From a virus: a stretch of DNA of 20,927 bases. Below are positions 12,639 through 20,927 of this stretch, one piece after another. The notes beneath the pieces were generated by a model, which was not told where the DNA came from, searched no databases, and saw only the letters and a program-made list of their open reading frames with translations. The stretch lies in IMG/VR virus record IMGVR_UViG_3300034954_000204, positions 1 to 20,927 of that record. One strand, written 5' to 3'. The translations under genes and the position numbers were made by a program. The first letter of the stretch is position 1, and each line of letters begins with the position of its first letter.

Positions 12639-13700
12639 ATGGCTGCAATTACATTATCAAAACCAAATACTAATTGGCAGACTTTTTGTAAGTGGGTAAC
12701 AAGCACAGACAACCGCCTCTACTTGGGGTGGTTCGGTGTGTTAATGATACCTTGCTTATTAACTGCTGCTACATGTTTTATACTCGCCTTCATTGCTGCA
12801 CCTCCTGTGGACATAGATGGCATACGTGAACCAGTAGCTGGCTCATTACTCTATGGAAACAACATCATATCTGGAGCAGTCGTTCCCTCCTCAAACGCAA
12901 TCGGACTACATTTTTATCCCATCTGGGAAGCAGCAACAGTCGATGAATGGCTCTATAACGGAGGGCCATACCAGCTCATCATCTTCCATTTCCTTATCGG
13001 TGCATTGTCTTACATGGGACGACAATGGGAACTTAGTTATAGACTAGGGATGAGACCTTGGATATGTGTAGCTTACTCAGCTCCCGTATCAGCTGCACTA
13101 GCAGTATTCCTTGTATATCCTTTTGGACAAGGATCTTTTTCTGATGGTATGCCTTTAGGAATCAGTGGAACATTCAACTTTATGTTTGTCTTCCAAGCGG
13201 AGCACAACATCCTTATGCACCCCTTTCATATGCTCGGAGTTGCGGGTGTTTTTGGCGGTGCTTTGTTTAGTGCTATGCACGGAAGCCTTGTTACTTCCTC
13301 AATCCTTCGGGAGACCACGGAAGAGGTTTCACAAAACTATGGTTACAAGTTTGGTCAAGACGAAGAGACATATAACATTGTAGCTGCACACGGTTACTTT
13401 GGTAGACTTATATTTCAATATGCTTCTTTCAATAATTCTCGTAGCTTACATTTCTTTCTTGGTACTTTCCCCGTGGTTGGCATATGGCTTACCTCTATGG
13501 GAATCTGCACTATGGCTTTCAACCTTAATGGGTTTAACTTTAACCAGTCAGTAGTTGACAGTAATGGTAAAGTCATACCTACATGGGCTGACGTTGTCAA
13601 TAGACAGAACCTTGGAATGGAAGTGATGCACGAACGTAACGCTCATAACTTCCCACTAGACCTCGCTGGAGAGGTAATTTCAGCACCAACACTCGCATAA
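12639..13700 (+). CDS. psbA: Photosystem II reaction centre protein D1
   Basis: D1 is the fast-turning-over core subunit of photosystem II; phage copies replace damaged host D1 to keep energy flowing during infection. The 353-residue protein lies one residue behind standard D1 numbering and keeps the functional residues: Tyr161, His190, His198, His215, His252, Phe255, Ser264 and His272, plus the Mn-cluster ligands Asp170, Glu189, His332, Glu333, Asp342 and Ala344 (standard numbers). The processing site after Ala344 is followed by only 10 residues, shorter than the usual C-terminal extension of about 16. Standard position 130 is Gln (in MGRQWEL), the form typical of low-light D1. The reading frame is intact with no intron. 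Confidence 0.99.
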
Positions 13701-13705
13701 CGTCA

Positions 13706-13762
13706 CGTCCGTTCATCCTTTATAGGACGCATGAAACCTAATCATGGAACGGGGATTAGGTA
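13706..13762 (+). promoter_or_regulatory. Candidate glutamine-II (downstream-peptide) riboswitch
   Basis: Right after psbA the RNA can form hairpin TCCT/AGGA (13716-13719 with 13724-13727), then a stem CCTAATC/GATTAGG (13737-13743 with 13754-13760). The ten-base loop of this stem contains GGAACGG, and GAACGG at 13747-13752 pairs perfectly with CCGTTC at 13709-13714, forming a pseudoknot. The order CGTTCAtCC, GGACGCATGAA, stem, loop with GGAACG is what I recall of the downstream-peptide RNA, reported to bind glutamine, in cyanobacteria and their phages. A ribosome binding site and a 17-codon gene follow within 20 bases, again as in that class. The structure is seen; the ligand is inferred. Confidence 0.8.
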
Positions 13763-13775
13763 TATGGAGATTACC

Positions 13776-13829
13776 ATGAAAGTAACATTCGTATATCGTG
13801 GCATTGCTTACACCAAAATAATTAAGTGA
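13776..13829 (+). CDS. 17-aa peptide, DUF4278-like, downstream of the riboswitch
   Basis: A short frame with a good Shine-Dalgarno (GGAGA at 13766-13770, 5 bases before the ATG). The peptide MKVTFVYRGIAYTKIIK has the VTxxYRGxxY pattern that I associate with small DUF4278 proteins of cyanobacteria and cyanophages. It is the gene that the adjacent riboswitch would control. A terminator 15 bases downstream of its stop makes this a self-contained unit. What the peptide does is unknown. Confidence 0.68.
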   Translation: MKVTFVYRGIAYTKIIK

Positions 13830-13844
13830 AGCTAAATTCTTTAT

Positions 13845-13876
13845 GGGTCATAACCATCTCGGTTATGGCTCTTTTT
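13845..13876 (+). terminator. Rho-independent terminator after the peptide gene
   Basis: An 11-bp stem (13845-13855 with 13861-13871, two G-U pairs) closes a five-base loop ATCTC and is followed by TTTTTACTTTTAT. It would end transcripts coming from hli-psbA and the riboswitch-peptide unit before the capsid gene. The loop ATCTC is complementary to GAGAT at 13767-13771, which overlaps the peptide's ribosome binding site; this may be chance. Confidence 0.82.
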
Positions 13877-13881
13877 ACTTT

Positions 13882-14028
13882 TATAGAATGGTCACACGTT
13901 CTATATCATATGAGAGAAGAGACACCTCAGAGTCGGATCTCTTCTTAATTGGTATGAGCCCAGTACGCTGGATACCTTATGCCGTCTAGACGGTGTGGAC
14001 AGACACACAGCAGCTTGAGTCTTAGCTG
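13882..14028 (+). other. Hairpin-rich noncoding region before the capsid gene
   Basis: This 150-base stretch has no convincing gene but several stems: TATAGAATG/CGTTCTATA (13882-13890 with 13897-13905), an 8-bp stem 13914-13921 with 13939-13946, GGTAT/ATACC plus CCAG/CTGG (13951-13976), a perfect 12-bp palindrome CCGTCTAGACGG (13982-13993), and CAGCT/AGCTG (14011-14015 with 14024-14028). Possible roles are RNase III processing sites, a stabilising 5' leader for the capsid transcript, or a small phage RNA. I do not recognize it as a known RNA class. Confidence 0.55.
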
Positions 14029-14086: not shown

Positions 14087-15256
14087 ATGGCACAACAGTC
14101 AACAAATAACCCAGCGTCACAAACCTTTCTGGGTAGAATAAATACAGCTACAAACGCTACAAATAACAGAGACCTTTATTTAAAGTTGTTCTCAGGTGAG
14201 ATGTTTACTGGATTCCAGAGGGAGACAATCGCACGTGACCTAGTCATGAAGCGTACGTTAACCAACGGTAAGAGTTTACAGTTCATCTACACTGGACGCA
14301 CCAGTGCGGAGTACCACACACCTGGAAATAGCATATTAGGAAACTCTGACAAAACTCCTCCAGTAGCAGAGAAGACAATCACAGTAGATGACCTACTCAT
14401 CTCTAGTGCATTTGTCTATGAACTGGATGAGACACTTGCTCACTACGAATTGAGGGGTGAAATTTCTAAGAAGATCGGCTACGCACTTGCACAAAAGTAC
14501 GATAGACTAATCTTCAGAGCTATTGCTAAAGGTGCTAGACAGGCATCTCCAGTATCACTAACCAACTTCGTTGAGCCTGGTGGTACACAGATCCAAGTTG
14601 GAGCTGGTTCTAATGCTGACGATGCTCTTGATTCAGCTAAACTCGTAACAGCATTTTATGATGCTGCTGCAGCTTTAGACGAGAAAGGAGTTTCTGATGA
14701 TGGTCGGGTTGCCGTACTAAACCCACGTCAGTACTATGCACTTATCCAAGAAGCAGGTTCTAACGGATTAATTAACAGAGACGTACAAGGTACAGCTTTA
14801 CAGAGCGGAAACGGTGTAATTGAAATTGCAGGCATCAGAATCTTCAAGTCAATGAACGCTCCATTCTTCTCTAAGTATGGTACTAAGTATGCACCTAACA
14901 GTGGTGCTTCTGCCTCTACTGACCTTGATACAGTAGATCCTGGAAATACAGGTTCATTCGTATCTGAGTCAATCGAAACAGCTACAACAGTTACAGGTAA
15001 CAACTATGGCCCACGCCAAAACTACGGTGCTGCCTCTAACTTTGCAAACACATGCGGGCTAATCTTCCAGAGAGAAGCTGCAGGTGTAGTAGAAACCATT
15101 GGCCCACAGGTACAGGTTACATCTGGCGATGTGTCAGTTGTATACCAAGGTGATGTCATCCTAGGAAGACTCGCTATGGGAGCAGATTATGTGAACCCAG
15201 CAGCTTGTGTAGAATTGTTCGCAGGAACAACTACAAAGCCAGCAGCTTTCTCATAA
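14087..15256 (+). CDS. Major capsid protein, gp10-like
   Basis: Forms the icosahedral head shell. At 389 residues it is somewhat longer than T7 gp10A (345). Characteristic segments of the family are RDLYLKLFSGEMFTGFQ, GKSLQFIYTGRTSAEYHTPG, TVDDLLISSAFVYELDETLAHYELR and YALAQKYDRLIFRAIA, all matching T7 gp10 blocks in order, and it ends in a beta-rich region (SGDVSVVYQGDVILGRLAMGADYVNPAACVELF). There is little Shine-Dalgarno character before the ATG. It has its own transcription unit: a terminator lies upstream at 13845-13876 and a strong one downstream at 15272-15295. Confidence 0.97.
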   Translation: MAQQSTNNPASQTFLGRINTATNATNNRDLYLKLFSGEMFTGFQRETIARDLVMKRTLTNGKSLQFIYTGRTSAEYHTPGNSILGNSDKTPPVAEKTITVDDLLISSAFVYELDETLAHYELRGEISKKIGYALAQKYDRLIFRAIAKGARQASPVSLTNFVEPGGTQIQVGAGSNADDALDSAKLVTAFYDAAAALDEKGVSDDGRVAVLNPRQYYALIQEAGSNGLINRDVQGTALQSGNGVIEIAGIRIFKSMNAPFFSKYGTKYAPNSGASASTDLDTVDPGNTGSFVSESIETATTVTGNNYGPRQNYGAASNFANTCGLIFQREAAGVVETIGPQVQVTSGDVSVVYQGDVILGRLAMGADYVNPAACVELFAGTTTKPAAFS

Positions 15257-20076: not shown

Positions 20077-20927
20077 ATGGCATACAAAAGACAGACTAGT
20101 TTTATGCCGTTCGATAGGAAACGTCAAGCAACTATTAAAGACGAATCCAAAGAACTACGAACCTTAGCTAAGGCTTTGGAAGGACAACGCAAACAAACAG
20201 TCAAAGAATTTGCTACGGCAAGCAACCAACAACTAACTGAAATGAAACGTGGCGATCAGATTGCTACGAAAAAAGATCAGTATGAAATTGAAGAGTTAGC
20301 ACGTTTTAGTCAGAATTTAACTAATGCTTTAACAGTTGGCTCTAGAGTCTTAGGTAAACAATACATTGAAAATCAAGAGGCAAAAGGTTATAAAGCCTAT
20401 GTTGAAGATCCTGTTGATGTCAAAGAGCTTAACATGGAGATTAATGAGCTTCGTGTTAAAAATGCAGAAGAAATAGATGAGATTGAAAAAGAGGCAAATA
20501 AAGAAAGAATATTAACTTTACAAGAAAAATTAAAATTACACGAAACTCGTTTAAAAAGAGGGTCGTGGGGTAATGGATATACTAGAGCATACTTACAGGA
20601 AGTAGGAAATGGTTTCCTTCCTCATCTTATGCAAACTACTTCTAGTAGTGAAGAGTGGTATAAAGAACCAGAAATTGGTGATGACGGTTTACCTATAGAA
20701 GGTACTGGTATAGCCTTCAAAGATTACATGGCTCAAGACCTAAAAACTAAAGGTCTAATGGAGCAAGAAATACTTAGAAGATATATTGAAAACAATGATC
20801 TTGATGGTATTAATGCAAGTTGGCAAAATGAATATGTACTAGAACCTGCTAGCAAAATTTTAACAAAGTGGGCTAATCAACAACTTCAAAATGATATAAT
20901 TGAAAACGCTAGGGTAGAGCGTAATGG
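20077..20927 (+). CDS. Internal virion protein C, gp15-like (3' partial)
   Basis: An open frame of 283 full codons from ATG 20077 to the right edge without a stop. It starts MAYKRQTSFMPFDRKRQA and is rich in Lys, Glu and Gln, with a likely coiled coil around residues 105-165 (for example EEIDEIEKEANKERILTLQEKLK). Its position after the gp14-like gene matches T7 gp15 (747 residues), part of the ejectosome that spans the periplasm. Sequence similarity to gp15 is not obvious by eye; the call rests on gene order and helical character. Confidence 0.72.
   Translation, partial: MAYKRQTSFMPFDRKRQATIKDESKELRTLAKALEGQRKQTVKEFATASNQQLTEMKRGDQIATKKDQYEIEELARFSQNLTNALTVGSRVLGKQYIENQEAKGYKAYVEDPVDVKELNMEINELRVKNAEEIDEIEKEANKERILTLQEKLKLHETRLKRGSWGNGYTRAYLQEVGNGFLPHLMQTTSSSEEWYKEPEIGDDGLPIEGTGIAFKDYMAQDLKTKGLMEQEILRRYIENNDLDGINASWQNEYVLEPASKILTKWANQQLQNDIIENARVERN

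Follow-up and report, generated by a model that had tools for sequence, protein, structure and literature searches.

A candidate type-2 glutamine riboswitch with a micropeptide gene upstream of the capsid gene of T7-like cyanophages

Which RNA element lies between the psbA gene and the capsid gene of this virus, which gene does it control and how, and does it belong to the photosynthesis genes or to the capsid locus? The window, i.e., the whole 20.9 kb virus record that was analyzed, has a T7-like gene order, with an RNA polymerase fragment followed by replication genes, head genes, psbA, and the capsid gene. Autographiviridae cyanophages such as P-SSP7 are the nearest isolates around the riboswitch locus. 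The first-pass annotation had proposed a glutamine riboswitch and a micropeptide at this site, and it had placed them within the photosynthesis gene unit, where host nitrogen status would be coupled to expression of the peptide. The riboswitch identity and the micropeptide held, but the placement in that unit and a coupling of nitrogen sensing to it were not supported. The site is bordered by the following features:

12639-13700, plus strand: psbA (D1) gene, an open reading frame with psbA matches in related phages
13698-13700: psbA stop codon TAA, overlapping the 5′ strand of helix P0 (see below)
14087-15256: open reading frame of the major capsid gene

The class of the element was determined with the Rfam covariance models. 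A cmscan search of the window yielded RF01704 (Glutamine-II) at 13707-13761 with 59.7 bits (E 2.1e-12; Rfam cut-off 33), the sole Rfam match anywhere in the window, which agrees with the glutamine riboswitch class named in the first pass. For Glutamine-I (RF01739) the window reached 19.1 bits, below the cut-off of 35. The aptamer is composed as follows:

13707-13761, plus strand: Glutamine-II (downstream-peptide) aptamer, RF01704
13710-13714, plus strand: pseudoknot 5′ strand CGTTC, pairing with 13747-13751, invariant in 32/32 relatives
13716-13727, plus strand: P1 hairpin, 13716-13719 with 13724-13727, paired in 97% of cells, both sides changing
13728-13730, plus strand: CGC strand, invariant, corresponding to C17-G18-C19 in the crystal structure
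13736-13761, plus strand: P2 hairpin, 13736-13743 with 13754-13761, compensatory changes in 7/8 pairs
within 13736-13761, plus strand: P2 loop ATGGAACGG, which holds the pseudoknot 3′ strand

In an alignment of 32 relatives, 97.6% of the cells in P1, the pseudoknot, and P2 were paired, and the covariation was 0.346, compared with 0.119 after shuffling (0/500, with shuffles that ignore kinship). Both sides had changed in 7 of the 8 P2 pairs and in 3 of the 4 P1 pairs. Covariation in three helices had been proposed as a check; P1 and P2 indeed covary among the relatives, but the pseudoknot is invariant and offers no covariation to see. The first-pass coordinates of the pseudoknot (CCGTTC 13709-13714 with GAACGG 13747-13752) and of the stem (13737-13743/13754-13760) were exact. 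The bases of the crystal structure (PMC6698751) were mapped by hand to 13710, 13711, 13729, 13730, 13744, and 13750-13753, and within this mappable set the ligand-contact and triple bases C1, G2, G18, C19, A33, C39, G40, G41, and G42 were all present and invariant in the 32 diverse relatives. In that structure, C17-G18-C19 form a triple and a long-range pair at the ligand site (PMC6698751). The Rfam match, the helix covariation, the intact ligand-contact bases, and the invariably associated peptide support the identification of the element as a glutamine riboswitch: the aptamer is of the Glutamine-II class and is predicted to bind glutamine. Aptamer class, ligand, and ON behavior are already known.

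The gene that follows the aptamer is very small:

13766-13769, plus strand: Shine-Dalgarno (SD) motif GGAG, read from the sequence
13776-13829, plus strand: 17-residue micropeptide open reading frame (ORF) MKVTFVYRGIAYTKIIK

A short ORF with a YRG motif was found downstream of 177/177 viral aptamers with at least 140 nt of downstream sequence, starting 23-32 nt past the aptamer, and this association is far beyond chance. The lengths of these ORFs cluster at 13-21 and 32-38 residues, and within the 17-codon class dN/dS was about 0.44. The 17-mer of P-SSP7 lies just past position 20,520 of AY939843. The SD motif and the 17-residue gene of the first pass are thus real features of the locus. Its description of the peptide as DUF4278-like was borne out in part. 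Longer phage relatives match part of DUF4278 (PF14105) with 15.1-24.5 bits, the best of them near the cut-off of 25.3, but the window peptide, run as a 21-residue frame from an upstream ATG, had no match in Pfam. Host proteins pass the same cut-off with 35.1-42.9 bits. The window peptide is below the Pfam threshold and is therefore DUF4278-like, not a demonstrated DUF4278 member. A PHROGs search gave weak matches only, to families of unknown function, and a search for a solved structure of a host DUF4278 protein gave no match. The original downstream-peptide description comprised ORFs of 17-100 residues, and its 17-residue ORFs fit the phage class seen here.

When flanks and codons were listed across the phages, two additional helices became visible that lie outside the Rfam model:

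13699-13707, plus strand: P0 5′ strand AACGTCACG, pairing with 13797-13805 (own-versus-swapped duplex test, covariation counts)
13797-13805, plus strand: P0 3′ strand, YRG-motif codons Arg-Gly-Ile, inside the micropeptide ORF
13759-13768, plus strand: P4 5′ strand GGTATATGGA, pairing with 13788-13797, sharing 13759-13761 with P2 and covering the GGA of the SD motif
13788-13797, plus strand: P4 3′ strand, codons leading up to and including Tyr-Arg of the YRG motif

In the relatives, the Arg-Gly-Val/Ile codons find their complement in the strand preceding the aptamer. Duplexes of own strands were more stable than those of swapped strands for P4 (-7.1 versus -4.9 kcal/mol) and for P0 (-8.8 versus -6.7 kcal/mol), with 0/300 permutations in each case. 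This excess holds in the short and the long peptide classes, and the wrong-partner controls of the duplex test were null. In the 32-sequence alignment, P0 and P4 together were 80.5% paired, and their covariation was 0.260 compared with 0.160 after shuffling (0/500, kinship again being ignored by the shuffles) and 0.06-0.12 after sliding. Alignment column 75-118, for example, contains UA 14, CG 13, GC 2, and AU 1 times, and the innermost pairs of both helices are nearly invariant. A few lineages lack P4 (L023/L057 type and L327/L344 type), and no P0/P4 signal was present in the host copies tested. The Tyr of YRG is encoded by TAT in 132/137 unique ORFs and the Tyr five codons later by TAC in 119/137, which points to a constraint at the RNA level. 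The region 13697-13832 folds better than shuffled sequences (z -2.8). The column common to P2 and P4 is able to pair in both helices in 30/32 sequences, and removal of the shared bases costs P4 about 4.3 kcal/mol. Phages of the S-TIP37/S-RIP1 type show complementarity between GTACGAA, directly before the AUG, and the 5′ flank together with the first pseudoknot base. These sequence patterns suggest that the codons of the micropeptide fold back and hide its own translation start, a wiring unseen in the host versions compared.

Type-2 glutamine switches are regarded as ON switches that are thought to act on translation (PMC6698751; PMC6316151). Combined with the competition between P2 and P4, this published view leads to a simplest model. 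Without glutamine, P4, stacked on P0, would keep the SD motif closed. Glutamine would stabilize the pseudoknot and P2, and the bases 13759-13761 would be reclaimed from P4. P0 may be strained as well, since its 5′ strand ends only 2 nt short of the pseudoknot strand of the aptamer. The weakening of P4 would open the ribosome binding site, and the peptide would be translated, so that the element would be a translational ON switch. The micropeptide, in turn, may act on a target common to the host DUF4278 proteins that are encoded under host type-2 riboswitches. Opening of the ribosome binding site by glutamine is a prediction of this model; it was not reproduced in silico by a nested ViennaRNA fold with blocked pseudoknot bases (mean unpaired value of the SD motif 0.320 apo and 0.322 holo), a method that can represent neither the pseudoknot nor the strand competition.

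The equal accessibility of the SD motif in the apo and the pseudoknot-blocked folds would also fit a real aptamer accompanied by constitutive mRNA structures P0 and P4, serving stability, processing, or low basal translation, with the switching done by another alternative structure. P4 can, in addition, remain partly formed while P2 is intact. However, P2 and P4 compete for shared bases, P4 is much less stable without them, and flank and first pseudoknot base pair with the ribosome binding region in S-TIP37/S-RIP1-type phages, so that we consider a purely constitutive role unlikely. It is similarly doubtful that the micropeptide serves mostly as a leader cistron, which need not have a function of its own and relays the switch to the next gene by translational coupling. 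The stop codon of the micropeptide forms a 4-nt overlap (ATGA) with the next ATG in 23/167 loci, mostly before a 43-residue membrane-protein-like ORF, a 1-nt overlap exists in 14/167, and the next ORF is at most 20 nt away in 32/167, which suggests a possible relay of the switch to the next gene in these lineages. Yet a conserved coupled ORF is absent in 81/167 loci and, in practice, in the window, the YRG residues are kept beyond the needs of pairing, with the dN/dS given above, and the YRG motif occurs up to three times in host DUF4278 proteins. Downstream of the ORF, the window also contains a good hairpin with a T-run (13845-13871), and similar hairpins exist in P-SSP7 and L247. Attenuation, i.e., control of such a terminator-like hairpin by the aptamer or by peptide translation, and thus of readthrough into the capsid gene, could be envisaged. 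As the hairpin was present in just 20/156 relatives compared with 9/101 random windows, it is not conserved, and attenuation was rejected and is given next to no credence here.

Another proposal, which the first pass had emphasized, is that the element is a 3′ regulator of psbA linking host nitrogen status to photosynthesis. In the window the element begins 9 nt past the psbA stop codon, and P0 overlaps this codon. The distribution of the element was analyzed in an unbiased sample of 33 viral contigs, each anchored on the capsid gene and reaching at least 2 kb upstream. A regular-expression search of the locus missed divergent copies, to which Rfam was therefore applied. The element was found in 29/33 contigs, 27 by pattern and L296 and L322 by Rfam. 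It was as common without adjacent psbA (13/15) as with psbA nearby (16/18). Isolates with the element include P-SSP7, 9515-10a, P-SSP10, P-GSP1, P-SSP2, NATL1A-7, S-RIP1, S-RIP2, S-TIP37, S-CBP1, and S-CBP4, and it is also present in S28-C3, S-TIP28, and SS120-1, in which psbA is absent from the stretch. The S-SBP1 element scored below threshold, and the element is absent from S-B28, S-CBP2, S-CBP3, S-CBP42, S-SRP01, DSL-LC07, P60, and Syn5. The equal frequencies show that psbA is not the fixed partner of the element; the capsid locus and the peptide are, and the YRG ORF is always downstream of the element. Regulation of psbA is thus rejected on the distribution, and we regard it as very improbable; the element does not form part of a photosynthesis gene unit. 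Its place is the region upstream of the major capsid gene, where psbA is an optional upstream neighbor. The distance between the end of the upstream gene and the aptamer has a median of 10 nt and is within 20 nt in 114/157, and hence the switch lies between cistrons. No sigma-70-like site was found near the aptamer in the window, and the phage element does not have the arrangement of host-type leaders, with a promoter directly upstream and transcription starting some 20 nt ahead of the motif.

Several other elements and genes were observed at these loci. A conserved, structured, RNA-like element of about 95 nt occupies 13915-14018 of the window and recurs at about 160 viral loci (alignment A2); its distance to the capsid ATG is 92 nt in the window and ranges from 62 to 123 nt overall. 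In it, a variable hairpin (often tRNA T-arm-like GGAGGTTCGAGTCCTCC) is followed by TTGG, then by another hairpin, in which compensatory changes occur, and then by GCCGTCTAGACGGTGGGATAGACCAC. It had no match in Rfam and could represent a new leader RNA of the capsid gene or a signal for processing. A group I intron (RF00028, 107.6 bits; L114 4136-4363, minus strand) lies beside a partial capsid match and probably interrupts the capsid gene. In many podovirus loci (L003, L330, L306, L034, and others) the micropeptide is directly followed by a signal-peptide protein of 118-120 residues (gp222 in isolate annotations), in L025 by a LAGLIDADG homing endonuclease-like ORF starting MHRSIEWAAGLFEGEGYITNNGKYPKVGLTM, and in L251, L252, L253, L269, L292, and other psbA-less loci by the conserved 43-residue membrane-protein-like ORF MNDRAIWFGIIGLALIMGALELSHIKTHMTEKRPNLHFHKVVR with the ATGA overlap. 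In P-RSP2 (L343 535-652), Glutamine-II and a YRG micropeptide MKQIKLVYRGVVYYINN are found near the left genome end, far from the capsid gene and without psbA nearby. The Glutamine-II pattern also occurred in a non-cyanobacterial MAG (L155, Porticoccaceae) and, as a phage-type copy with YRG micropeptide, in a genome-collection contig (L212); both are likely to be phage contigs that were binned with bacterial genomes.

Taken together, this T7-like cyanophage probably has an intercistronic riboswitch of type 2 (Glutamine-II) that governs translation of a 17-residue YRG micropeptide. More tentatively, and with somewhat less than even confidence, we propose that the YRG codons serve as protein motif, as anti-Shine-Dalgarno strand (P4), and as strand of the enclosing helix (P0), so that the coding sequence of the peptide would be its own expression platform. 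This would be relayed to a second gene by stop-start overlap in some lineages, and a self-contained cassette, intercistronic and located at the capsid locus, would have replaced the promoter-driven leader of the host. T7-like cyanophages, a major marine phage group, thus hold a putative glutamine sensor at one fixed pre-capsid site even without psbA. The reading of host nitrogen status by a phage would become directly testable in laboratory systems, e.g., P-SSP7 on Prochlorococcus MED4, and the codon-embedded P0/P4 platform offers specific synonymous mutations for such tests. In the accessible literature we found no description of the fixed pre-capsid position in T7-like cyanophages, the independence of psbA, or codon-embedded P0/P4 helices, and priority is uncertain. 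Weinberg 2010 hints at a regulatory role for the conserved amino-acid sequence.

Earlier mentions of glutamine riboswitches in cyanophages concern T4-like phages. Glutamine-I (glnA, RF01739) has been reported in cyanophage AJ630128 (PMC6806525) and near the tmRNA in phage Melnitz (PMC9004378). These and the window element are glutamine aptamers in marine phages, but the Glutamine-I fold and genes differ. In Synechocystis, a type-1 glutamine switch, the gifB/IF17 leader, precedes a glutamine synthetase regulator that contains DUF4278 (PMC6316151). A glutamine switch ahead of a DUF4278-related ORF is common to both systems, but the phage peptide, with only a single DUF4278-like repeat, is much too short for an IF7-like inhibitory half. 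The closest counterpart is the host Glutamine-II element (RF01704) of marine picocyanobacteria, which has the P1/pseudoknot/P2 fold, the ligand-site bases, and a downstream short YRG (DUF4278-type) ORF in common with the phage. In contrast, the host copies tested lack a P0/P4 signal, carry a promoter-like GCTACTTTT flank, and precede proteins of about 55-63 residues with three YRG-like repeats, whereas the phage copy is intercistronic, draws P0 and P4 from the codons of its ORF, and precedes a single-repeat micropeptide.
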